From positions 124,001-188,000 of the forward strand of contig NZ_JAJBZH010000004.1 in the NCBI RefSeq assembly GCF_020551945.1: a DNA stretch of 64,000 nt, given 5' to 3'. This DNA comes from Cellulosimicrobium marinum (GTDB lineage Bacteria > Actinomycetota > Actinomycetes > Actinomycetales > Cellulomonadaceae). Below are positions 35,600 through 52,691 of the stretch, piece after piece (the first letter of the stretch is position 1; each line of letters starts with the position of its first letter). The notes under the pieces were generated by a model. It saw only the letters and a program-made list of their open reading frames with translations. It was not told where the DNA came from and searched no databases. The position numbers and the translations under genes are program-made.

Positions 35600-36784
35600 A
35601 TGGAGTTCCGCCGGATCCCCGGTCTGCCGCCCTACGTCTTCACCATCATCGACGGGCTCAAGATCGAGGCACGCCGAGCAGGACGCGACGTCGTGGACCT
35701 CGGGTTCGGCAACCCCGACCTGCCGAGCCCGCAGGTCGCGGTCGACAAGCTTGCCGAGGCCGCGCAGAACTCCCGCAACCACCGCTACTCCGCGTCGCGC
35801 GGCATCCCCAAGCTGCGCGAGGCCGTCGCCGGGCTGTACCGGCGCCGGTTCGGCGTCACCCTCGACCCCGACACCGAGATCATCTCGACCATCGGCGCCA
35901 AGGAAGGCTTCAGCCACCTCATGTGGGTGCTGCTCCAGCCGGGCGACGTCGCCCTCGTCCCCACGCCGAGCTACCCCATCCACATCTGGGGCCCGTACTT
36001 CGCCGGCGCCGACGCGCGCCAGGTCCCCATCGGCGACGGGACCGACGCCGCGGGGTACATCGACCGCATCATCGAGGCGTGGGAGCTCGGCTGGCCCAAG
36101 CCGCGCGTCGTCGTGCTGTCGTTCCCGCACAACCCCACGACGACGGTCGCGACCAAGGAGGAGCTCCAGCGCCTCGTCGACTGGGCCCGCGACAAGGACG
36201 TCGTGCTCGTGCACGACCTCGCCTACGCCGACATGACGTTCGACGGGTTCCGCCCCCCGTCGATCATGGAGTGCGACGGCGCCCGCGAGGTCGCCGTCGA
36301 GCTGTACTCCATGACGAAGTCGTTCTCCATGGCGGGCTGGCGCGTCGCGTTCCTCGTGGGCCGCAAGGACGTGGTCGGCGCGCTCGCGAAGCTCAAGAGC
36401 TACCTCGACTACGGCACGTTCCAGCCCATCCAGATCGCCGCGACCGTCACCCTCAACGAGGCCACCGAGCACCCGCAGGAGATCTCCTCGGTGTACGAGT
36501 CGCGTCGCGACGCCCTGCACGACGGCCTCCAGCGCATCGGCTGGGACATCCACAAGCCCGGCGGCACGATGTTCGCCTGGGCCCGCATCCCCGAGCCCTA
36601 CCGAGACATGGGCTCGATCGAGTTCGCGACGCACCTCGTCACCGAGTGCGACGTCGCCGTGTCGCCCGGCGTGGGCTTCGGTCCCGGCGGCGACGAGTTC
36701 GTGCGCTTCGCGCTCATCGAGAACGAGCACCGCATCGGCCAGGCGATCCGCGGCCTCCGGCGCGGCCTCACCCGCCTTCAGTAG
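35600..36784 (+). CDS. PLP-dependent class I/II aminotransferase, AlaC-like
   Basis: 394 residues. The N-terminus 'RRIPGLPPYVFTIIDGLKIE' and 'DLGFGNPDLPSPQVAVDKL' match alanine/glutamate-pyruvate transaminases of the AlaC group. PLP contacts: 'IGAKEGFSHL', 'PTPSYPIHIWG', 'VLSFPHNPTTTVATKEEL', 'VVLVHDLAYADMTFDGF' and Lys240 in 'YSMTKSFSMAGWRVAF'. The Arg for substrate carboxylate is in 'EFVRFALIENEHRI'. The likely reaction is alanine plus 2-oxoglutarate to pyruvate plus glutamate; substrate range is not certain. A -10 box TACGCT lies at 35530-35535 and GGAG precedes the ATG. Confidence 0.85.
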   Translation: MEFRRIPGLPPYVFTIIDGLKIEARRAGRDVVDLGFGNPDLPSPQVAVDKLAEAAQNSRNHRYSASRGIPKLREAVAGLYRRRFGVTLDPDTEIISTIGAKEGFSHLMWVLLQPGDVALVPTPSYPIHIWGPYFAGADARQVPIGDGTDAAGYIDRIIEAWELGWPKPRVVVLSFPHNPTTTVATKEELQRLVDWARDKDVVLVHDLAYADMTFDGFRPPSIMECDGAREVAVELYSMTKSFSMAGWRVAFLVGRKDVVGALAKLKSYLDYGTFQPIQIAATVTLNEATEHPQEISSVYESRRDALHDGLQRIGWDIHKPGGTMFAWARIPEPYRDMGSIEFATHLVTECDVAVSPGVGFGPGGDEFVRFALIENEHRIGQAIRGLRRGLTRLQ

Positions 36785-36786
36785 CC

Positions 36787-36812
36787 CTGGTCTCGCAAGG
36801 TAGTACCGGGGT
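36787..36812 (-). repeat. Unit of the GGTACTACCT repeat family
   Basis: On the minus strand it reads GGTACTACCTTGCGAGACC, matching 15 of 19 positions at 58354-58372 and resembling the three tandem units at 37018-37080. It lies directly after the aminotransferase stop. Confidence 0.45.
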
Positions 36813-36848
36813 TCTCGTGCCCGACGGCGCGGGGTCGCCTCGGGTGTC

Positions 36849-36937
36849 GGGGCGGGTGGGGCGCCGCGTCTTCCCACCGCCGCTCGTCCCTCGCGGCTCC
36901 CGCCAGACCCGCCACGACGCGGCGCCCCACCCACCCC
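36849..36937 (+). repeat. Palindromic element copy 1 (45-nt core, paired arms)
   Basis: Arms 36854-36870 and 36916-36932 are perfect 17-bp complements, with four more pairs outside after one mismatch. The 45-nt core (36871-36915) differs from copy 2 at only 2 positions, while the arms differ in sequence. Inner hairpin GCCGC/GCGGC. It lies between the aminotransferase gene and a convergent membrane protein gene. Confidence 0.85.
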
Positions 36938-37017
36938 TCCCGGTGCCGTCCCACCCGGGGTGACCGCTCGCCGTCGGGCACCACCGACCAAGGACTGGGC
37001 CGTTGCCGGCGCACCTG

Positions 37018-37080
37018 GGTACTACCTCGGCAGACTGCGGTTCTACCTGGGCGGACTGCGGTACTCCCTCGGGACGGGGC
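37018..37080 (+). repeat. Three tandem 21-bp units of the GGTACTACCT family
   Basis: Units at 37018-37038, 37039-37059 and 37060-37080 begin GGTACTACCTCGG, GGTTCTACCTGGG and GGTACTCCCTCGG. The first two end in (C/G)(A/G)GACTGC. Confidence 0.7.
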
Positions 37081-37091
37081 GCGGCGGCGCG

Positions 37092-37526
37092 TCAGGCCGG
37101 GGAGGCGCTGGGCGGGGTCTGCCGGCGGCGCTGCTGGTAGCCGTCCACGCGGCGGCCTGCGGCGGCGACGGCGCGGTCGTCGACGAGGTCGTAGACGATC
37201 GTGCCGACCCAGACGATCAGCGTGGCCCACACCCAGGTCCAGAACCCGTCGATGTCGAACCCGCTCGACGGAGAGAGCAGCGCCGTGACGACGAGCGAGC
37301 CCAGGACGGTGACGAGGCCGAGGGTCCACGTCCAGCCATGGACGTGCTCGCCGAGGAGCCGCACGACGAGCGGGCGCAGCACCGTGATCGTGACGGTGAA
37401 CAGCGCGACGGCGACGACGCCCCACAACCAGCCGATGCGCATCCCGTCGAGCACGAGGTTCGCGACGAGGAGGGTCACGCCGTAGGCGATGGCGGCGACG
37501 ACGAAGCTGAGCACCTTCGCTCTCAT
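37092..37526 (-). CDS. Phage-holin-4_2-like small membrane protein
   Basis: 144 residues with four hydrophobic helices: 'VLSFVVAAIAYGVTLLVANL', 'WGVVAVALFTVTITVLRPLV', 'WTLGLVTVLGSLVVTALLS' and 'TWVWATLIVWVGTIVYDLVD'. 'VLDGMRI' between helices 1 and 2 is typical of family PF04020 (phage_holin_4_2), which despite its name is chromosomal and of unknown role. The charged C-terminus is Arg/Gln-rich. GGGAGG precedes the ATG. It is divergent from the sugar-dehydrogenase-like gene. Confidence 0.75.
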   Translation of the reverse strand: MRAKVLSFVVAAIAYGVTLLVANLVLDGMRIGWLWGVVAVALFTVTITVLRPLVVRLLGEHVHGWTWTLGLVTVLGSLVVTALLSPSSGFDIDGFWTWVWATLIVWVGTIVYDLVDDRAVAAAGRRVDGYQQRRRQTPPSASPA

Positions 37527-37656
37527 CTCGGCCTCCCTGGGGCCGGGGCCGTGCGGATCACAGCCTTGTGCTTCCAGTGTCCCGCGACGCACGCGATCTG
37601 CTCGTCGAACGGGTGGCGCGGGTGCGGGCAGGACGATCGGCCCTGACGATGGGTGC

Positions 37657-38919
37657 ATGCCCACCGCCCACCGCCCTGCCCGCCGCGCGGCGGCGGGCGT
37701 CGTCCTCGTGGGACTGCTCGCGGCGTGCACGGGCGACAACGCAGGGGACGGGGAGCCCGCGCCGTCGGGCACGACGAGCACCCCGACCACCCGGACGCCG
37801 ACCGCGGAGACACCGACCACCGAGCCGCCCGAGACGTCCGACCCGCCCGACGGCGGCGCGCTGGTCGTCGTGCCGCAGGTCGAGGCCGAGGTCGAGGACG
37901 TGGCGACGGGCCTCGACGCGCCGTGGGGGATCGCGGCCCTGCCCGACGGGCACCTGCTCGTGTCGCAGCGCGACGAGCGGTCCCTCGTCGTCGTCGACCC
38001 GGCGACGGGGCAGACCCGGCCCGTCGGAGGGGCGGGGGCGCAAGAGCTGCGCGACGGCACGGTCACGGGCGGCGAGGCGGGCCTGCTCGGCGTCGCCGTG
38101 GGGCCCGACGACGGGGACGCACCGGGCGAGGTGTTCGTGTACCGGACCGCGGCGGACGGCAACGAGGTGCTGCGCGGCACGCTGGACGGCACCGAGCTGT
38201 CCGCCCTCGACGTCGTGCTCGACGGCATCCCGGCCGCGCAGTTCCACGACGGCGGGCGGCTCGCGTTTGGGCCCGACGGCCACCTCTACGTCGCGACGGG
38301 AGACGCCACGCAGCAGGGCGTGGCGCAGGACCCCGGGTCGCTCGGCGGGAAGATCCTGCGGGTCACCGTCGACGGGCGCGCCGCTCCGGGCAACCCCGAC
38401 GGGTCGCCGGTCTGGAGCCTCGGGCACCGCAACGTCCAGGGGATCGCGTGGGACGCGACGGGCCGGATGCTCGCGAGCGAGTTCGGCCAGGACACGTGGG
38501 ACGAGCTCAACGTCGTGGAGCCGGGCGGGAACCACGGGTGGCCCGACGTCGAGGGGACGGGCGGCGCGGACCAGGGGTTCGTGGACCCGGTGGCCACGTG
38601 GGGAACCGACGAGGCCTCGCCCAGCGGGCTCGCCGCGACGCGCGAGGGCGCCTACCTCGCCGGGCTGCGGGGCGAGACGCTGTGGCGCGTGCCGTTCGCC
38701 ACGCCCGACGGCGGTGCGTCGCCCGACGCGTTCGGCGAGCCGCAGCCGCTGCTCACGGACCACGGCCGGCTGCGCGCGGTGCTGGTCGACCCGGCGACGC
38801 CCCTCGGGGACGACGGCGCGTCCGTGCTGTACGTCCTGACGAGCAACACCGACGGCCGGGGGGACGTGCGCGACGGCGACGACCGCCTCCTGCGGGTCAC
38901 GCTCACGCCCGCGGGCTGA
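37657..38919 (+). CDS. PQQ-dependent sugar dehydrogenase-like (GSDH) lipoprotein
   Basis: 420 residues. Lipobox 'GLLAAC' near Cys24, then a Thr/Pro linker ('SGTTSTPTTRTPTAETPTTE'). From residue 70 a six-bladed beta-propeller: 'VATGLDAPWGIAALPDGHLL', 'GEAGLLGVAV', 'FHDGGRLAFGPDGHLYVATG', 'LGGKILRVTVDG', 'SLGHRNVQGIAWD', 'LNVVEPGGNHGWPDVEG' and 'SPSGLAATREGAYLAGLRGE'. These are glucose/sorbosone dehydrogenase (soluble sGDH-like) motifs; it would oxidise aldoses outside the cell if PQQ is available. GACGAT-N6-ATG suggests a leaderless mRNA. Confidence 0.85.
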   Translation: MPTAHRPARRAAAGVVLVGLLAACTGDNAGDGEPAPSGTTSTPTTRTPTAETPTTEPPETSDPPDGGALVVVPQVEAEVEDVATGLDAPWGIAALPDGHLLVSQRDERSLVVVDPATGQTRPVGGAGAQELRDGTVTGGEAGLLGVAVGPDDGDAPGEVFVYRTAADGNEVLRGTLDGTELSALDVVLDGIPAAQFHDGGRLAFGPDGHLYVATGDATQQGVAQDPGSLGGKILRVTVDGRAAPGNPDGSPVWSLGHRNVQGIAWDATGRMLASEFGQDTWDELNVVEPGGNHGWPDVEGTGGADQGFVDPVATWGTDEASPSGLAATREGAYLAGLRGETLWRVPFATPDGGASPDAFGEPQPLLTDHGRLRAVLVDPATPLGDDGASVLYVLTSNTDGRGDVRDGDDRLLRVTLTPAG

Positions 38920-38953
38920 CCGGAGCCGCGGGGACGCGCCGTGGCCAGCCGGT

Positions 38954-38982
38954 TTGGCGCTCGATAACGAATCGGTTACGGT
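38954..38982 (+). promoter_or_regulatory. Promoter of first DUF348/Apf-like gene, with shared operator in the spacer
   Basis: TTGGCG (38954-38959), 17 bp, TACGGT (38977-38982). The spacer contains TCGATAAC and ATCGGT, nearly identical to the promoter at 45973-46001. Read on the other strand it is a direct repeat with 11-bp period (GTAACCGA, GTTATCGA), the form of MtrA-type response-regulator sites. Confidence 0.6.
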
Positions 38983-39167
38983 CGGGTGTCCCGGCGTGCG
39001 GTGGAGTCCGCGAGGGTGTATGCGCCCAGGTCGGGACACGGCGGTCGCTCGCCCGGCGCGAGCGACGACGCCGGAGGACCGCCGGATCGGCGGATCGACC
39101 TCGGCGACCACGTGCCCCCGGCACGACACACCGCACGAGAGGCGCGACCGCGCCACGTCGACCGCCC

Positions 39168-40460
39168 GTGCCCGGGACCTTCGACGACTGGACCAGCGTG
39201 CAGCACCCCTTCCGACCGCGCACCAGCGCGCCCACGAGCCCGACCGAGCCCACCGGCACCACCCCCGCCGAACCGCCCGCCACCCGGGCCGCCGCGCGCG
39301 CCGCCACCACCCGCACCACGCGGCGCCGCCGCTGGGTCGGCGTCGCCGCCGCGACCGTCGTCACTCTCGTCGGGTCCGGCGCCGTCGCCTACGGCGAGGC
39401 GCAGAAGACCGTGACGATCGACGTCGACGGCGAGATCCGCACCCTCACCACCCTCGCCGGGTCCGTGCAGGGCGCCCTCGACGCCGCCGGCGTGACCGTC
39501 GACTCCCGCGACGTCGTCGCACCCGACCCCGACACCGCCCTCGACGACGGCGCCGACGTCGTCGTCCGCCTCGGCAAGAAGGTCACCGTCCAGACCGACG
39601 ACGAGCAGTCCGACGTCTGGCTCACCGCGCTCGACGCCGACGAGGCCCTGCGCACCCTCGCCGACCGCGGAGGCGACGTCCACCTCGTCGCGTCCCGCTC
39701 CGGGGACCGCGCCTCCCTCGACCTCGACCTCGACACCGACGGCCCCGTCGACGTCGTCGCCGACGGCGAGACCACCGTCGCGCCCGACGGCGGCGTGGGC
39801 GTCCCCGCGCTCCTCGCCGAGCGCGACATCGAGCTCGGCGACCTCGACCGCGTCAGCGTGCAGCGCGTCGCGAAGCCCGCCGAGGGAGAGCCCACCGTCG
39901 CCCTCGTCGTGCAGCGCGTCACCGTCGAGCGCGAGGAGACGACCGAGGCCGTCGCCTACGAGACCGTCGAGAAGACCGACGCCGACCGGTACAGCGACGA
40001 CCCCGCCGTCGAGCAGCGCACCGGTTCGAAGGGCGTGCGCACCACCGTCGCCGACGTCACCCTCGTCGACGGCGTCGAGGAGTCCCGCGACGTCGTCTCC
40101 GAGAAGGTCACGAAGAAGCCTGTCGACCGCGTCCTCGTGCGCGGCACCAAGGAGCGCCCCAAGGACCCGCGCGCCATCGGCCGGGCTCTCGCCGCCGAGC
40201 GGGGCTGGACCGGTGCGCAGTGGACGTGCCTGGAGAACCTGTGGACCAAGGAGTCCAACTGGAACCCTTCGGCCGACAACCCGACGTCCAGCGCCTACGG
40301 CATCCCCCAGGCGCTGCCCGGGTCCAAGATGGCGAGCGCCGGCGCCGACTGGGCCACCAACCCCGCGACCCAGATCTCCTGGGGCCTCGGCTACATCGCC
40401 TCCGTCTACGGCACCCCGTGCGGCGCCTGGTCGCACTCCCAGGCGGTCAACTGGTACTGA
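39168..40460 (+). CDS. DUF348-G5 cell-wall protein with Apf-like lytic transglycosylase domain (Rpf-like 1)
   Basis: 430 residues. An N-terminal transmembrane anchor ('RRRWVGVAAATVVTLVGSGA') is followed by DUF348 repeats ('KTVTIDVDGEIRTLTTLAGS', '[20 protein letters not shown]') and a G5-type domain ('VAYETVEKTDADRYSDDPAV', 'VTLVDGVEESRDVV'). The last 95 residues are not a classical Rpf domain but the Apf-like fold: 'ENLWTKESNWNPSADNPTSS', 'AYGIPQALPGSKMASAGADW'; E362 is the likely catalytic acid. It should cleave peptidoglycan. The start is uncertain: GTG 39168 keeps 'DDWT' shared with the paralog; GTG 39198 is the alternative. The leader is about 180-210 nt. Confidence 0.8.
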   Translation: MPGTFDDWTSVQHPFRPRTSAPTSPTEPTGTTPAEPPATRAAARAATTRTTRRRRWVGVAAATVVTLVGSGAVAYGEAQKTVTIDVDGEIRTLTTLAGSVQGALDAAGVTVDSRDVVAPDPDTALDDGADVVVRLGKKVTVQTDDEQSDVWLTALDADEALRTLADRGGDVHLVASRSGDRASLDLDLDTDGPVDVVADGETTVAPDGGVGVPALLAERDIELGDLDRVSVQRVAKPAEGEPTVALVVQRVTVEREETTEAVAYETVEKTDADRYSDDPAVEQRTGSKGVRTTVADVTLVDGVEESRDVVSEKVTKKPVDRVLVRGTKERPKDPRAIGRALAAERGWTGAQWTCLENLWTKESNWNPSADNPTSSAYGIPQALPGSKMASAGADWATNPATQISWGLGYIASVYGTPCGAWSHSQAVNWY

Positions 40461-40489
40461 GCCGGAGCCCCTAGGCCGGTGGTCCGCAG

Positions 40490-40540
40490 TCGGGTCGGGT
40501 CGGGTCCGGTCGGGTCCGGTCGGTCCGGTCCGGTCCGCGG
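40490..40540. repeat. Simple GGGTC/GGTCC tract
   Basis: Tandem five-base units (CGGGT, then CCGGT) run for about 50 bp, starting 30 bp after the preceding stop codon and ending next to palindromic copy 2. Confidence 0.7.
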
Positions 40541-40546
40541 TCCTGC

Positions 40547-40627
40547 ACCGAGAGGGCGCGGGTCTTCCATCCGCCGCTCGTCCCTCGCGGCTCCCGCCAG
40601 ACCCGCCACGACCCGCGCCCTCTCGGT
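40547..40627 (+). repeat. Palindromic element copy 2
   Basis: Perfect 18-bp arms (40547-40564 and 40610-40627; ACCGAGAGGGCGCGGGTC and its complement) enclose a 45-nt core (40565-40609). The core is almost identical to copy 1, but the outer arm sequence is unrelated. Confidence 0.88.
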
Positions 40628-40775
40628 TCCGGCCCGCTCGACCGGTACGTCACCACCGCGCGGCCTCGTCCCGCACCTCGCCCTCGCGCCGCTCGCCGGC
40701 GCTTCCGGGCCGGGGTGCGGGACGTCGTCGTCCCGGAGCGACCGCACCAGGTGGGCCGACAGCCGAGGGCGGGAC

Positions 40776-40863
40776 GGGGTGGGAGGCGGCGGGCCGTGGT
40801 GGGCCTGGCGGGAGCCCCGCGAGGCACGAGCGGGCGGATGGTAGGCCCACCGCCTCCCACCCC
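40776..40863 (-). repeat. Palindromic element copy 3 (48-nt core)
   Basis: Arms 40776-40795 and 40844-40863 pair at 19 of 20 positions. The core 40796-40843, read on the minus strand, matches copy 4 apart from one extra C and two extra G on the two sides of its inner hairpin and an A-to-G change matched by a T-to-C change in the arm. Confidence 0.85.
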
Positions 40864-40865
40864 GG

Positions 40866-40923
40866 GACGTCCGCAACCGAGCGGCGCACGGCGAGACGTC
40901 CGCAACCGAGCCGCGCACGGCGA
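40866..40923. repeat. 29-bp tandem duplication
   Basis: 40866-40894 and 40895-40923 begin GACGTCCGCAACCGAGC and are nearly identical. They lie just upstream of the metG promoter. Confidence 0.85.
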
Positions 40924-40967
40924 GACGACGGCCGACGCCGGGGGACGGACGACTAGGATCGGGCCCC

Positions 40968-42761
40968 ATGACCCACATCCTCTCGGCCGTGGCGTGGCCG
41001 TACGCGAACGGCCCGCGCCACATCGGTCACGTCGCAGGTTTCGGTGTCCCGTCCGACGTCTTCAGCCGGCACATGCGGATGGCGGGTCATGACGTGCTCA
41101 TGGTGTCGGGCACGGACGAGCACGGCACGCCGATCCTCGTGCAGGCGGACAAGGAGGGTGTGAGCCCGCAGGAGCTCGCGGACCGCTACAACCGCGTGAT
41201 CACCAAGGACCTCGCGGACCTGGGCCTCTCCTACGACCTGTTCACCCGGACGACGACGCGCAACCACTACGCCGTGGTGCAGGAGATGTTCCGCACGGTG
41301 CACAAGAACGGCTACATGGTGGAGCAGTCGTCGATGGGCGCGATCTCGCCGTCGACGGGTCGTACGCTGCCGGACCGGTACATCGAGGGCACGTGCCCCA
41401 TCTGCGGGTACGACGGCGCGCGCGGCGACCAGTGCGACAACTGCGGCAACCAGCTCGACGCGATCGACCTCATCAACCCGGTGAGCCGCATCAACGGCGA
41501 GACGCCGAAGTTCGTCGAGTCGAACCACTTCTTCCTCGACCTGCCGGCGTTCGTGGACGCGCTGGGGGACTGGCTGCGCACGCGGACGGCGTGGCGCCCG
41601 AACGTCCTGAAGTTCTCGCTCAACCTGCTGGACGACGTGCGCCCGCGCGCGATGACGCGTGACATCGACTGGGGCATCCCCGTGCCGCTGGAGGGCTGGG
41701 AGTCCAACCCGAGCAAGCGCCTGTACGTGTGGTTCGACGCGGTGATCGGGTACCTGTCGGCGTCGATCGAGTGGGCGCGGCGCACGGGCGACCCCGACGC
41801 GTGGCGCGCGTACTGGAACGACCCGGAGGCCCGCTCGTACTACTTCATGGGCAAGGACAACATCACGTTCCACTCCCAGATCTGGCCGGCCGAGCTGCTG
41901 GCGTACGACGGTCGCGGGAACAAGGGCGGCGCTCCGGGCCCGTACGGGAACCTGCAGCTGCCGACGGAGGTCGTGTCGAGCGAGTTCCTCAACGTGGAGG
42001 GGCAGAAGTTCTCGTCGTCGCGCGGCGTCGTGATCTACGTGCGGGACATGCTCGCGCGCTACCAGCCGGACGCGTTCCGCTACTACGTGGCGTCGGCGGG
42101 ACCGGAGACGCAGGACGTCGACTTCACGTGGGCGGACTTCCAGCGCCGCACGAACGACGAGCTGGTCGCGGGCTGGGGCAACCTCGTGAACCGCACGGCG
42201 AACCTCGTCCACAAGAACTTCGGTGCGATCCCGACGCCGACCGAGCGGCAGCCGATCGACGAGGGCGTGCTCGCGACGACGACGACGGCGTTCGGCCGGG
42301 TGGGTGACCTCATCGCGTCGCACCGGCAGCGCGCCGCCGTGGCCGAGGCCATGAAGACGGTCGGCGAGGTGAACAAGTACGTGTCGGACACCGAGCCGTG
42401 GAAGCTCAAGACGGACCCGGACCGCCTCGCGACGGTGCTGCACACGGTCACCCAGGCGGTGAGCGACCTCAACACGATCCTGTCGCCGTTCCTCCCGCAC
42501 TCGGCGCAGAAGGTGCACGAGGCGTTCGGCGGCACGGGCACGTTCGCGCCGCAGCCGCGCATCGAGGAGGTCACCGACCTCGACGACGACTCGCGCCACT
42601 ACCCGGTCATCACGGGCGACTACCGCGCGGACGGCGTCCCGGGGTGGGAGCCGCGCGCCGTCGTCCCGGGGACCCCGGTGGGGAAGCCGACGCCGGTCTT
42701 CACCAAGCTGGACGACTCGATCGTCGAGGAGGAGCTCGACCGACTGCGCGAGTCCGCCTGA
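40968..42761 (+). CDS. metG: Methionyl-tRNA synthetase
   Basis: 597 residues; charges tRNA-Met in the cytoplasm. The class I signature HIGH is in '[13 protein letters not shown]'. The second signature is '[10 protein letters not shown]' in place of KMSKS, as in many MetG1-type actinobacterial enzymes. A zinc knuckle is visible: '[18 protein letters not shown]'. '[10 protein letters not shown]' is the methionine pocket region. There is no C-terminal tRNA-binding (EMAP) extension. TAGGAT lies 8 bases before the ATG, so the leader is minimal. tatD follows on the same strand but is separated by palindromic copy 4. Confidence 0.97.
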
Positions 42762-42796
42762 CCTGGTGCGGCACCCGGTCGGCCGCTCAGGGCGGG

Positions 42797-42897
42797 TTCA
42801 GGGTGGGGCGGGACGTCGCGGGTCGTGGTGGGTCTGGCGGGAGCCGCGAGGCACGAGCGGCGGATGGTAGACCCGCGACGTCCCGCCCCACCCTGAA
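42797..42897 (-). repeat. Palindromic element copy 4 (28-bp arms)
   Basis: The longest copy: arms 42797-42824 and 42870-42897 are perfect 28-bp complements around a 45-nt core (42825-42869). Read on the minus strand the core differs from copy 2 at 3 positions. It sits 36 bp after the metG stop and 54 bp before tatD. Confidence 0.9.
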
Positions 42898-42950
42898 ACC
42901 TCCGTACCCCATGTGGGTTCGCGCACGGCAGGACGAGAAGGAGCTGACGC

Positions 42951-43982
42951 ATGGCGAAGCAGCGTGAGCGCGGGTGGCCGCCGGACCCTGAGCCGCTGCC
43001 CGTCGCGGTGGTGGACAACCACACGCACCTGGAGTCGATCGCGCACGTCCTGCCCGACGACGTCCTGCCCCCGAGCCCGGCGGCGCACCTGGAGCGTGCG
43101 GCGGCCGTGGGGGTGGAGCGGGTGGTGCAGGTCGGGTGCGACCTGCTCTCGGCCCGGTGGACGGACGCCCTCCTGCGGGGCGACGAGACGGTCTGGGGTG
43201 AGCCCGCGACGTCGGCCCCCGACCCTGCGCCGTCCCACGCCGAGCATGCGGTCGGCGCCCGTTCCGGCCCGTCGGCGGGCGACGACGGCATGGTCGGCGA
43301 GGTGCGACGGGTGCTCGGGGCCGTGGCGATCCACCCGAACGAGGCGGTCCTCCACGGTGGGGTCCGCGAGGTGGGGCCCGACGGGCTGGAGCCCGACCCG
43401 CGGCCGCACCACGCGACGTCGCTCGACGACGCGGTCGCCGAGATCGCGCGCATCGCGCGGCAGAACGACCGGGTGCGGGCCGTCGGCGAGACGGGGATGG
43501 ACCTGTTCCGCACCGGCCCCGAGGGCGAGCGTGTCCAGCGGGCGTCGTTCCGGGCGCACGTCGCGCTCGCGAAGGAGCTCGGTCTCGCGCTGCAGATCCA
43601 CGACCGCGACGCCCACGCCGAGGTGCTCGACGTGCTCGCGCGGGACGGGGCCCCGGAGCGTACGGTGTTCCACTGCTACTCCGGCGACGCGGAGATGGCG
43701 CGGTTCTGCGCCGCGCAGGGCTGGTACCTGTCGTTCGCGGGGCCGGTGACGTTCCGCGCCAACGACGAGCTCCGGGCCGCGCTGCGCGAGGTGCCGCCCG
43801 GTCAGGTGCTGGTCGAGACGGACGCCCCGTACCTCACGCCGCACCCGTACCGGGGCCGCCCGAACGCCCCGTACGTGCTGCCGCAGACGGTCCGGACGGT
43901 CGCGGAGGTCCTGGACCTCCCGCTGCCGGCGGTGTGCGAGCGGCTCGCCGCGACGTCGGAGGCCGTCTACGGCCCGTGGTGA
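42951..43982 (+). CDS. TatD-family metal-dependent DNase
   Basis: 343 residues. Metal ligands are in 'VVDNHTHLESI', 'AVGETGMDLFRTG', 'LALQIHDRDAHAEVLDVL', 'TVFHCYSGDAEMARFCA' and 'VLVETDAPYLTPHPYRGRPN'. The family acts as 3'-5' exonuclease on damaged DNA or RNA; the exact role here is not proven. About 45 extra residues, Pro/Asp/His-rich ('GEPATSAPDPAPSHAEHAVG'), are inserted after strand 2, making it longer than the usual 260-280. GAGAAGGAG precedes the ATG. Placement between metG and an Rpf-like gene is standard in actinobacteria. Confidence 0.92.
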   Translation: MAKQRERGWPPDPEPLPVAVVDNHTHLESIAHVLPDDVLPPSPAAHLERAAAVGVERVVQVGCDLLSARWTDALLRGDETVWGEPATSAPDPAPSHAEHAVGARSGPSAGDDGMVGEVRRVLGAVAIHPNEAVLHGGVREVGPDGLEPDPRPHHATSLDDAVAEIARIARQNDRVRAVGETGMDLFRTGPEGERVQRASFRAHVALAKELGLALQIHDRDAHAEVLDVLARDGAPERTVFHCYSGDAEMARFCAAQGWYLSFAGPVTFRANDELRAALREVPPGQVLVETDAPYLTPHPYRGRPNAPYVLPQTVRTVAEVLDLPLPAVCERLAATSEAVYGPW

Positions 43983-44718: not shown

Positions 44719-45885
44719 GTGCTCGCACCTGACGGAACGACCCGCCGCCGCGTGCAGCGGCTCGTCGCGCAGGGCGTCGTCGTGGTCGGGCTGGTCGGGG
44801 TGACGGGTGCCTTCGCCACCCTGCACAAGAGCGTGACCCTCGACGTCGACGGCGAGCTCTACGACGTGTCGGCCTACGGGCGCACCGTCGCCGAGGTGCT
44901 CGACTACCAGGACGTGGCGGTCGCGCCGGACGACCTGGTGGAACCCGCGCTCGACCGGTCCGCGCGCGACGGCGGCACGATCGTCGTCCGGACGAGCCAG
45001 GACGTCACCGTCGAGATCGACGGCCGTCTCCAGACGATCTCGACGACGGCGCGCACCGTGGGTGAGCTGCTGACCTACCTGGGGCCTCGTGCCGAGAACG
45101 CGGTGACGAACGTGTCCCGCTCCGCCGCGCTGGGCCGCGAGCCGGTGCGGGTCTCCACGCTGAAGACGGTGCACGTGGCCGTCGACGGCGCGGTCCTGCC
45201 GATCACGACGGCCGAGGCGACGGTGCGCGGCGTGCTCGTCGCGGCCGGGATCGTGCTCGGTGAGGACGACGACACGTCCGTGCCGCTGGACGCCGCCGCG
45301 GTGGACGGGATGCTCGTCATGGTGAGCCGCGCGGCGTCGTCCTCCGCGACGGTCACCGAGGTGCTGCCGTTCGCCACGGAGGAGGTCGAGGACCCGAACC
45401 TGCCGGAGGGCCACCGGGTGGTGGTGCAGTCGGGTCGGGTCGGCGAGGCCGTGACGACGTACGCGGTGCAGTCGCTGGGCGGGGCGGAGGTGTCCCGGAC
45501 GGTGCTGACGCGGTCGGTGACGACGGAGCCGCGCGACGAGATCATCAAGGTCGGGACGATGGACGTCTCCGTCTCGGTGGACCCCGGCTCGGCACGCGCG
45601 ATCGGCCGTTCGCTGGCCGCGCAGCGCGGGTGGGGTGACGACCAGTTCGTCTGTCTCGACAAGCTGTGGACCAAGGAGAGCAACTGGCGGGTCGACGCGG
45701 ACAACCCGAGCTCGTCGGCGTACGGGATCCCGCAGGCGCTGCCGGGGTCGAAGATGGCGAGCGCGGGCGCGGACTGGATGACGAACCCGGCCACGCAGAT
45801 CACGTGGGGTCTCGGGTACATCGAGGGTCGGTACGGGACGCCGTGCTCGGCGTGGTCGCACTCCGTCTCCGTCGGCTGGTACTGA
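44719..45885 (+). CDS. DUF348-G5 cell-wall protein with Apf-like lytic domain (Rpf-like 2)
   Basis: 388 residues. GTG 44719 is preferred because GAGGAG sits six bases upstream; ATG 44713 would abut the site. One transmembrane anchor ('LVAQGVVVVGLVGVTGAFAT'), three DUF348 repeats ('SVTLDVDGELYDVSAYGRTV', 'DVTVEIDGRLQTISTTARTV', 'TVHVAVDGAVLPITTAEATV'), a G5 domain ('VLPFATEEVEDPNLPEGHRV') and a C-terminal domain nearly identical to that of the protein at 39168-40460 ('DKLWTKESNW', 'SSSAYGIPQALPGSKMASAG'; E320). It occupies the position next to tatD where RpfB usually lies. Probable muralytic enzyme. Confidence 0.82.
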   Translation: MLAPDGTTRRRVQRLVAQGVVVVGLVGVTGAFATLHKSVTLDVDGELYDVSAYGRTVAEVLDYQDVAVAPDDLVEPALDRSARDGGTIVVRTSQDVTVEIDGRLQTISTTARTVGELLTYLGPRAENAVTNVSRSAALGREPVRVSTLKTVHVAVDGAVLPITTAEATVRGVLVAAGIVLGEDDDTSVPLDAAAVDGMLVMVSRAASSSATVTEVLPFATEEVEDPNLPEGHRVVVQSGRVGEAVTTYAVQSLGGAEVSRTVLTRSVTTEPRDEIIKVGTMDVSVSVDPGSARAIGRSLAAQRGWGDDQFVCLDKLWTKESNWRVDADNPSSSAYGIPQALPGSKMASAGADWMTNPATQITWGLGYIEGRYGTPCSAWSHSVSVGWY

Positions 45886-50795: not shown

Positions 50796-52691
50796 GTGGC
50801 TCACCTCCTCGGCGCGGACGGCGTCTCGCTGACCGTCGGCACCCGCACCCTGCTCGACGACGTCTCCCTCGGCCTCGACGACGGCGACCGGGTCGGCATC
50901 GTCGGCCCCAACGGGGCGGGCAAGTCCACGCTCCTGCGCCTCCTCGCGGGGACCCAGGTGCCCGACGGCGGTCGCGTCACCCGGGTCGGCGGGCTGCGGG
51001 TCGGCCTGCTCGACCAGCGCGACGACACCGGCGCCGGGGCGTCGATCCGCGACCTCGTCCACGGCGACGCGGCGACGCACGCCTGGGCGTCCGACGCGAG
51101 CGTCCGCGCCGTGCACGACGGTCTCCTCACCGACCTCGACCTCGACGCCCCGGCGGGCACGCTCTCGGGCGGCCAGCGCCGCCGGGTGGCGCTCGCGGCC
51201 CTGCTCGTCGCGGACCACGACGTCCTGTTCCTCGACGAGCCCACGAACCACCTCGACGTCGAGGGGGTCGCGTGGCTCGCCGAGCACCTGCGGGAGCGGT
51301 TCGCGCGGCCGGGTGCGCGGGGGGCGCTCGTCGTCGTCACGCACGACCGGTGGTTCCTCGACGCGGTGTGCTCGCGCATGTGGGAGGTGCGGGGCGACGG
51401 GACCGGGCAGGTCGAGGGGTACGAGGGCGGGTACGCCGCGTACGTGCTGGCGCGTGCCGAGCGGCAGCGCACCGCGGCCGTCGCCGCGGAGAAGCGCGAC
51501 AACCTGCTCCGCAAGGAGCTCGCGTGGCTGCGGCGCGGGGCGCCCGCGCGCACGAGCAAGCCGAAGTTCCGGCTCGACGCGGCGGCGGCCCTCATCGCCG
51601 ACGTGCCGCCGCCGCGCGACACCATGGAGCTCACGCGCACCGCGACGAAACGCCTCGGCAAGGACGTGCTCGACCTCGAGGACGTCACCGTGAGCGTTCC
51701 CGCGCGACCCGTGACCGACCCGGCCCCCGGCGCGTCCGGGGAGACGGGAGACGGTGCGGGGGAGCGGCGCGTGCTGCTCGACGACGTGACGTGGCGGCTC
51801 GGGCCGGGGGACCGGTACGGGGTGGTCGGCGTCAACGGCGCGGGCAAGACGACGCTCCTCGCCCTCCTCGCGGGCCGGCGCGAGCCCGACGCGGGCCGGG
51901 TCAGGCGCGGCAAGACCGTGCACGTCGCCGAGCTGACACAGGACGTCGGCGAGCTCGACGACATCGCCGGGCGCCGCGTCGTGCAGGTGATCGAGGACGA
52001 GAAGCGGTCCGTCGTCGTGGACGGCAAGGAGCTCACCGCGTCCCAGCTCGTCGAACGGCTGGGTTTCACGCGCGAGCGCGCGCAGACCCTCGTGCGCGAC
52101 CTCTCCGGCGGCGAGCGGCGCCGCCTCCAGCTCCTGCGGCTCCTCGTCGCGGAGCCGAACGTGCTGCTGCTCGACGAGCCCACGAACGACCTCGACACCG
52201 ACACGCTCGCCGCCCTGGAGGACCTGCTCGACGGCTGGCCGGGCACGCTCGTCGTCGTCTCCCACGACCGCTACCTGCTGGAGCGCGTCGCCGACCGCCA
52301 GGTGGCCCTGCTCGGCGACGGCCGCGTGCGCGACCTGCCGGGCGGCGTCGAGCAGTACCTCGACCTGCGGCGGGCGGCGCTCGCGAGCGGTCCGGCACCC
52401 GCCGCCGGAGCCCCGGCGGCCGGCGCCCGCGACGGGGGCGTCGAGCAGGCAGAGCCGGTCCCGGTGGGGCCGAGCGCCGCGGAGGTCCGTGCGGCGAAGA
52501 AGGAGATCAACCGCATCGAGCGCCGCCTGACCAAGGTGGCCGAGCTGGAGGCGCGCCTCCACGACAAGATCGCCGCGCAGGCGACCGACTACGCCGCGGT
52601 GGCGGAGCTCGACGGCCAGCTCCGCGAGCTCGCGGCGGAGAAGGACGAGCTCGAGGCGGCCTGGCTGGAGGCCGCGGAGGTCGCCGGCTGA
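50796..52691 (+). CDS. ABC-F family ATPase (ribosome-associated type)
   Basis: 631 residues, two ABC domains, no membrane segment. Domain 1: 'GIVGPNGAGKSTLLRLLAG', 'LSGGQRRRVALAALL', 'VLFLDEPTNHLDV'. Domain 2: 'GVVGVNGAGKTTLLALLAG', 'LSGGERRRLQLLRLL', 'VLLLDEPTNDLD'. The linker is helical ('AEKRDNLLRKELAWLRRGAP') and the C-terminus is a coiled coil ('AAKKEINRIERRLTKVAELE'), as in Uup-like proteins. Members bind the ribosomal E site or branched DNA. TACGCT-N7-GTG indicates a leaderless start. It follows the rsmA-ispE block as in other actinobacteria. Confidence 0.93.
   Translation: MAHLLGADGVSLTVGTRTLLDDVSLGLDDGDRVGIVGPNGAGKSTLLRLLAGTQVPDGGRVTRVGGLRVGLLDQRDDTGAGASIRDLVHGDAATHAWASDASVRAVHDGLLTDLDLDAPAGTLSGGQRRRVALAALLVADHDVLFLDEPTNHLDVEGVAWLAEHLRERFARPGARGALVVVTHDRWFLDAVCSRMWEVRGDGTGQVEGYEGGYAAYVLARAERQRTAAVAAEKRDNLLRKELAWLRRGAPARTSKPKFRLDAAAALIADVPPPRDTMELTRTATKRLGKDVLDLEDVTVSVPARPVTDPAPGASGETGDGAGERRVLLDDVTWRLGPGDRYGVVGVNGAGKTTLLALLAGRREPDAGRVRRGKTVHVAELTQDVGELDDIAGRRVVQVIEDEKRSVVVDGKELTASQLVERLGFTRERAQTLVRDLSGGERRRLQLLRLLVAEPNVLLLDEPTNDLDTDTLAALEDLLDGWPGTLVVVSHDRYLLERVADRQVALLGDGRVRDLPGGVEQYLDLRRAALASGPAPAAGAPAAGARDGGVEQAEPVPVGPSAAEVRAAKKEINRIERRLTKVAELEARLHDKIAAQATDYAAVAELDGQLRELAAEKDELEAAWLEAAEVAG

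Follow-up and report, generated by a model that had tools for sequence, protein, structure and literature searches.

We analysed 64,000 nucleotides of the Cellulosimicrobium marinum genome (RefSeq assembly GCF_020551945.1, contig NZ_JAJBZH010000004.1, positions 124,001 to 188,000 of the forward strand; hereafter the window, in whose positions coordinates are given), in which four hairpin elements with a common core lie in the gaps between genes. Copy 1 occupies a convergent gap, 64 nt past the stop codon of a forward-strand gene (35600-36784); copy 2 is flanked by a forward-strand gene ending at 40460 and by metG (40968) and shares the rpf-metG gap with copy 3; and copy 4 lies between metG and the next gene, i.e. 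in the metG-tatD gap (the labels metG, tatD and rpf were assigned by eye). In each element, the two arms of an outer stem (P1) enclose a core that holds an inner stem (P2) and a loop. We call S the strand on which pairing is constrained and wobble pairs are tolerated, and the strands in Table 1 refer to S.

The original prediction, made from the letters of the window, had described four copies with a nearly identical inner core and copy-specific paired arms, and all four were borne out by a check of the sequence, by comparison of the core with shuffled sequence and by a covariance model. With up to three mismatches, a 27-mer of the core gave three matches compared with none in 100 shuffles, and a 20-mer gave four compared with a shuffle mean of 0.28, four being reached by no shuffle. 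The covariance model matched copy 1 at 36841-36945 (+, E = 1.1e-17), copy 2 at 40547-40627 (+, 6.1e-17), copy 3 at 40766-40873 (-, 3.9e-15) and copy 4 at 42795-42899 (-, 5.6e-21), a recovery that is partly circular because the 24 training copies include all four. The arms indeed differ between copies and yet pair within each over 18-28 bp, perfectly in copy 2 (18 bp) and copy 4 (28 bp) and nearly so in copy 1 (22 bp, 95%) and in copy 3, whose roughly 20 bp include a single mismatch, A.C on S and of the minority kind among wobble-type defects. The description of the core needs one refinement: copy 3 has a different P2, and P2 also varies and covaries.

Table 1. Coordinates of the hairpin copies and of the repeats around copy 1
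Feature	Position	S strand	Parts and remarks
Copy 1, whole hairpin	36849..36937	-	P1 arms 36849-36870 / 36916-36937; core 36871-36915
Copy 1, inner parts			P2 36879-36883/36893-36897; 9-nt loop 36884-36892
Copy 2	40547..40627	-	P1 arms 40547-40564 / 40610-40627; core 40565-40609
Copy 3	40776..40863	+	P1 arms 40776-40795 / 40844-40863; P2 different
Copy 4	42797..42897	+	P1 arms 42797-42824 / 42870-42897; core 42825-42869
Outer inverted repeat around copy 1	36817..36981		36817-36846 / 36952-36981; 87%
21-22 bp repeats, GAGGTAGTACC type	36790..37069		inverted orientation on either side of copy 1

A dispersed family with two covarying stems

Beyond the window, the core recurs throughout the genome: a strict pattern found 75 copies compared with none for the reversed-pattern control, and the covariance model listed at least 90 at E ≤ 1 and at least 83 at E ≤ 1e-4. 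The family in this genome thus numbers about 75-85 copies. Because in each genome the covariance-model scans score no more than the top 150, 101 or 17 candidates, the copy numbers taken from them are lower bounds. All 17 Cellulosimicrobium genomes searched carry the element, with from at least 12 to at least 86 matches each. Outside the genus its occurrence is patchy (1 of 22 genomes in a first sample), and a sample of the order gave matches in 17 of 297 genomes, this one included, and in 10 of 95 genera. Among the matches listed, the other genera were Luteimicrobium, Oerskovia, Isoptericola, Antribacter, Actinomyces and a Sphaerisporangium record, together with one Microbacterium (L183, atypical) and one Jatrophihabitans bin. 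The strict pattern, run on 396 genomes across the phylum, of which just about a dozen belong to the same order, matched this genome alone, and it had no match in viral contigs. The neighbours of the hairpins in other genera appeared unrelated by eye, no family search having been run on them, and we found no description of the element among open PubMed Central papers.

We note that the elements in the Sphaerisporangium cinnabarinum ATCC 31213 record (L187, L202, L241 and L246) are very Cellulosimicrobium-like and that this record may be misnamed or mixed. Several contigs of the C. marinum genome (G000) end at or inside a hairpin, and some copies may be misassembled; further, three tandem part-copies (L017, L018 and L024) lie at 63-bp spacing beside a G/N run on its contig 12 (about 51939-52081).

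Alignment of 24 copies of this genome revealed a shared architecture of P1, an asymmetric internal loop, P2 and a 9-nt loop, which on S takes the form 5'-P1(~28 bp)-GUGGYGGGYCUGGCGGGA-P2-GAGGNACGA-P2'-GGAUGGUA-P1'-3'. On the complement of S, the conserved stretches comprise about 8 nt (TACCATCC) to one side and 18 nt (TCCCGCCAGRCCCGCCAC) to the other, and the loop reads TCGTNCCTC. P1 is about 28 bp long and its sequence varies from copy to copy, and P2 is likewise variable (GCCGC, GCGGC, GGACC, GCGCG and others). Across the two stems of the 24 copies we counted 111 double-changed cells compared with 32.5 after shuffling, and no more than 38 were left when the partners were slid by 1-3 columns; with 37 copies from several genera, the corresponding values were 129, 41.2 and at most 44. 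In a set of 66 non-redundant copies, P1 is paired in 71-100% at positions 1-27, in 64% at position 28 and in about 30% from position 31, and its helix length has a median of 28 bp (quartiles 26 and 30), with 50 of the 66 copies falling between 24 and 33 bp. This profile and the narrow range of helix lengths indicate that P1 is constrained in length but not in sequence.

Searches with Rfam 15 gave nothing above cut-off in window positions 36000-43500 (mir-3940 only, at 26.3 bits compared with a cut-off of 84, E = 0.17), and in nine loci of other genera they gave one tRNA, away from the element, and no family matching the element itself. A pseudoknot between the conserved 5' strand of the internal loop and the 3' flank of S was considered and rejected (score 5.86 compared with 6.05 shuffled). 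Column profiles are almost flat outside P1 and show no conserved flank motif or promoter.

Compensatory change and the strand that is constrained

From 32 clusters of orthologous loci, we took one pair each, the most arm-diverged, a choice by which clusters with near-identical or only register-shifted arms drop out, leaving 19 loci. At these, 61 P1 positions had changed on both arms compared with 17.8 expected under independent change, and of these 61, 51 form Watson-Crick pairs in both species whereas the other 10 do not; in the wider comparison of all 32 clusters, some double changes are register shifts. One-sided changes at the 19 loci led to an S-strand G.U pair in 11 cases, to an S-strand A.C in none and to another mismatch in 15, and 2 positions were unpaired in both species. 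One locus displays three states of a single pair, U-A in G012 (L318), U.G in G002 (L073) and C-G in G011 (L088), these handles denoting genomes and loci. The rpf-metG gap, which holds the element twice in this genome, holds it in 5 of 16 relatives (twice in G015 and once each in G003, G005, G009 and G013), with arms that differ among species and pair within each. Arms in relatives therefore diverge with compensating changes. G012 and G016 differ in their arms mostly by single, uncompensated changes, as judged by eye; this is expected at such short range, the two being 98.3% identical over one 12-kb region.

The defects that remain in P1 are one-sided. On a forward-strand reading, the isolated wobble-type defects amount to 37 A.C and 7 G.T in 71 copies of this genome and to 36 A.C and 3 G.T in 87 copies from elsewhere, i.e. 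an unfiltered total, read on S, of 73 G.U compared with 10 A.C. The count for this genome omits 10 of 81 parsed copies in which no 12-bp helix could be read in register, some because they are cut or lie in tandem and others because they belong to a subtype whose P1 is broken asymmetrically. Among the 66 non-redundant copies, isolated wobble-type P1 defects on S comprise 24 G.U and 5 A.C (p = 5e-4), and 20 copies have the G.U kind only compared with 3 that have the A.C kind only. Differences in the flanks, counted over 40 orthologous flank sides, are unbiased (50 A/G and 58 C/T), and thus a mutational strand bias does not account for the wobble bias. Further, the mean computed minimum free energy is -80.2 kcal/mol for S and -72.1 kcal/mol for the complement, and S forms the more stable fold in 65 of the 66 copies.

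Neither a plain DNA palindrome nor a cruciform would produce a wobble bias, and the one-sided G.U excess, taken together with the unbiased flanks, indicates that selection acts on S in its folded, single-stranded form, the simplest case being RNA. The view in the original prediction of a structured RNA or single-stranded DNA (ssDNA) element under selection for pairing is thereby supported on three counts: covariation, compensatory change at orthologous loci and the one-sided wobble bias. Overall, we conclude that the hairpins constitute a dispersed family in which P1 and P2 covary, that P1 is kept by compensation in place, and that the pairing constraint acts on S and not on its complement.

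Placement, spread and competing explanations

Neighbouring genes could be called for 131 copies from this and other genomes with our own codon-usage-based caller, after 32 copies with a predicted gene over the core and 6 at edges had been dropped; some of the 131 are orthologous to one another, since records of G016 come up again among the remaining Cellulosimicrobium loci. Convergent gaps hold 57 of these copies, tandem gaps 72 (30 with S in the sense and 42 with S in the antisense direction) and divergent gaps 2, and S points into the 3' end of the next gene in 99 of 131. In this genome alone, the counts are 25 convergent, 13 S-sense tandem, 21 S-antisense tandem and no divergent; as background, 8 of the 28 gaps of at least 90 bp that the same caller gives for the window are divergent. 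In convergent gaps, the gene on the 3' side of S is nearer than that on the 5' side in 53 of 57 cases, and in the convergent and antisense-tandem classes the edge of the hairpin lies a median of 23-81 bp, by group, from the neighbour's stop codon; in most classes, the 5' side of S is gene-free over a longer distance.

The near-absence from divergent gaps and the closeness of a gene on the 3' side of S are as expected of a stop signal acting in the S direction, which would be excluded from sites at which S formed the leader of a gene. We regard the hairpins as a family of structured elements between genes that is new, and we favour, with a probability of roughly 0.48, the reading that they act as RNA on S to halt RNA polymerase at gene ends; the RNA part of this reading has computed evidence behind it, and the halting is inferred. 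A polymerase moving in the S direction might have read through a convergent gene or an upstream one, or have started in antisense close to the promoter of the neighbour; the nascent S hairpin, in all probability together with a factor bound to the conserved loops, would then halt or release it before the next gene, most often ahead of antisense entry into that gene's 3' end. P1 would contribute length and pairing irrespective of sequence, and the core would be the part that is recognised. It is more doubtful whether, in a fuller version of this proposal, the Actinomycetales possess factor-dependent, one-directional stop signals with a conserved RNA core and an any-sequence stem of about 28 bp, placed at about 80 gene ends per genome as antisense barriers and read by a dedicated, putative RNA-binding protein.

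Several points weigh against the favoured reading. P1 in the 66 non-redundant copies also has 42 isolated mismatches of neither wobble type, and these copies are still related by descent. S is purine-rich, and part of its extra computed stability may reflect composition. In tandem gaps alone, the antisense preference of S is weak (42 compared with 30), and the 42 S-antisense copies must be served by a postulated transcript on S. Placement alone fits equally well a hairpin in the 3' untranslated region (UTR) of the neighbouring gene on the other strand. No promoter motif was seen by eye on the 5' side of S, and a U-tract is lacking: in none of the 66 copies is there a run of four T in the 16 nt beyond the hairpin, whichever strand is read, so that the hairpin is not a standard intrinsic terminator and stopping would need a factor or another mechanism. 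Lastly, 8 of 16 relatives have simple, coreless hairpins in the rpf-metG gap, as seen by eye, and a plain hairpin may serve there.

Copies of the element have multiplied. At metG-tatD, the genes lie within 2 bp of each other in 14 of 16 relatives (the exceptions being G008, with a gap of 56 bp, and G013, with 187 bp of array repeats), and the covariance model matched the hairpin in none of the 16; copy 4 was probably gained in this genome. No empty site retaining the arms as a plain palindrome was seen at this one site. A subfamily defined by one arm pattern has expanded, with 18 occurrences in G012 and 22 among the G016 loci; its copies share flanks and a neighbouring 21-bp array, and thus there, at least, the arms were brought along and not taken from the target. 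A comparable subfamily, that of copy 1, has 7 more loci in this genome (2 cut by contig ends and 1 with only part of the flank). By flank similarity, all 33 G012 loci fetched have a G016 partner, five pairs scoring low (1675-2409 bits); in locus L374 the pattern did not pick up the core. Conversely, 3 of 36 G016 loci are without a G012 partner; for one of these G012 holds the region at 95% identity, hairpin position included, and for another the match stops at the edge of the array.

The gene common to three G012 loci encodes an IS110-family transposase (Pfam PF01548 and PF02371; one copy examined). We rejected it as the autonomous partner of the hairpins, which are present in G016 without the insertion sequence (IS), the latter lying within the flanking 21-bp repeats; the IS110-family element is a guest, not the parent of the hairpin family. 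At the three G012 sites (L375, L376 and L377), it interrupts the 21-bp unit next to the hairpin at roughly one and the same place, close to GAGGTAGAGC^CGTGGTC, and the arrays of the G016 counterparts (L378, L379 and L380) are uninterrupted. A GAGGTAGAG sequence recurs by the left end of the IS, as expected of a target-matching guide RNA. In addition, the G012 loci L325 and L329 have left halves that are 99% identical over 1150 bp, IS110 included, but differ in their right flanks; since most of the shared part is IS, this may represent an IS insertion plus exchange between copies.

The units of these arrays, which are 21-22 bp long and lie in tandem (GAGGTAGTACCGNGGT...), form a second family of repeats; they occur alone or flank a hairpin in inverted orientation, at window positions 36790-37069, in the metG-tatD gap of G013 and at many G012 and G016 loci. 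In the rpf-metG gap, a GTCCG-type short repeat precedes copy 2 (40489-40537) and a 29-bp tandem repeat follows directly on copy 3 (40866-40927). Two similar secreted proteins (Rpf-like by eye; 39168-40460 and about 44752-45885), whose genes match at about 74% in DNA, bracket metG and the next gene.

The original prediction had offered, as the other of its two readings, a REP-like (repetitive extragenic palindrome) mobile unit inserted into palindromes and had proposed a search for a linked Y1 transposase; this reading is not supported. We give a core that entered pre-existing palindromes almost no credence: some copies do share an inner arm of about 16 bp and have outer arms that differ yet pair, but the rather constant length of P1, the expanded subfamily that carries its arms along and the lack of room for a prior palindrome at metG-tatD in the 14 relatives whose genes abut all speak against it, and no orthologous site with the same arms joined minus the core was seen among the few gaps compared. 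A Y1 transposase (Y1_Tnp, PF01797) had no match in 17 of 17 genus genomes in a search that was positive in 5 of 14 controls. The same result counts against the hairpins being a non-autonomous, REP-like DNA element whose S strand, as ssDNA, is recognised in trans by a putative transposase, the constraint reflecting mobility and gene 3' ends being safe landing sites. This would suit the high copy number, the patchy spread among genera, the subfamilies of near-identical copies with shared flanks, the copy at metG-tatD that is at no relative's site, and the strand-specific folding, which is also a property of HUH substrates. We nevertheless consider it unlikely, since every G012 locus fetched is paired with a G016 locus, viral contigs lack a strict match, and arms are compensated at fixed sites, which a dead insertion would not need; the term 'REP-like' holds only for how abundant the hairpins are and for their position at gene 3' ends.

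If the complement of S were instead the mRNA of a nearby gene and the hairpin ended or protected that message as part of its 3'-UTR, the short distance to the stop codon would be explained, and there is a precedent for highly structured 3' ends that lack U in Streptomyces clavuligerus (PMC8269248); this is distinctly unlikely, however, as the wobble-type stem defects, read on the mRNA strand, would be A.C rather than G.U (24 to 5), and the mRNA strand is the less stably folded one in 65 of the 66 copies. An independent small or self-cleaving RNA encoded on S appears very unlikely. Two variable stems around conserved loops do resemble a ribozyme or protein-binding RNA, and the 5' side of S is mostly gene-free over the longer distance, but no promoter motif was seen next to S, about 80 copies are positioned by neighbouring gene ends, and no ribozyme or small-RNA family matched in the Rfam searches described above. 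Finally, complementarity of the arms could be maintained without selection by template switching between them during replication, which has been proposed to create and maintain RNA hairpins (PMC8794818); the pairs L101/L197 and L334/L391, each with seven double changes and no single one, are in line with this. Template switching by itself gives neither a one-sided G.U bias nor the series of U-A, U.G and C-G, and with the mostly single arm differences between G012 and G016 also against it, we hold it highly improbable.

To our knowledge, how transcription ends and how antisense transcription is limited between the packed genes of GC-rich actinobacteria is poorly understood. If the hairpins do act on S as stop signals, a single genome would offer dozens of natural replicates of one signal, with orientations known. 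The family is also a clean natural case of compensatory evolution via G.U on one identified strand.

Relation to known systems

Like the REPs and bacterial interspersed mosaic elements (BIMEs) associated with Y1 transposases (RAYTs), the present hairpins are dispersed intergenic palindromes with many copies at gene 3' ends, sometimes in inverted pairs. The stems of REPs are themselves conserved and carry a GTAG/GGAG head; in our elements GGAG and GTAG are present in the S core, but P1 is free in sequence, the centre is conserved, stems are compensated in place, and the genus is without a Y1 match. IS elements in or beside the repeats are a further likeness, REPs being described as IS targets (PMC1525189). 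The attC sites of integrons and the ends of IS200-IS605 elements are recognised as structures on one strand, with much of the stem sequence free, and in this they resemble the hairpins on S; unlike them, the hairpins show no cassette arrangement around the copies seen here, and no Y1 enzyme was found.

Candidate structured RNA motifs from comparative genomics (PMC2864571) and the Rfam families derived from them share covarying stems around conserved loops and the lack of a linked gene family (the hairpin neighbours being judged by eye); they differ in that the hairpins match no Rfam family in the stretches tested and occur in dozens of copies per genome at gene 3' ends. Intrinsic terminators are likewise stable, GC-rich hairpins at gene ends in convergent and tandem gaps, but what sets the present element apart from them is its conserved core of 45 nt, which contains internal and apical loops, together with a pairing constraint specific to one strand. 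With the highly structured, U-lacking and bidirectional 3' ends mapped in S. clavuligerus (PMC8269248), it has in common a structured gene end without a U-tract.

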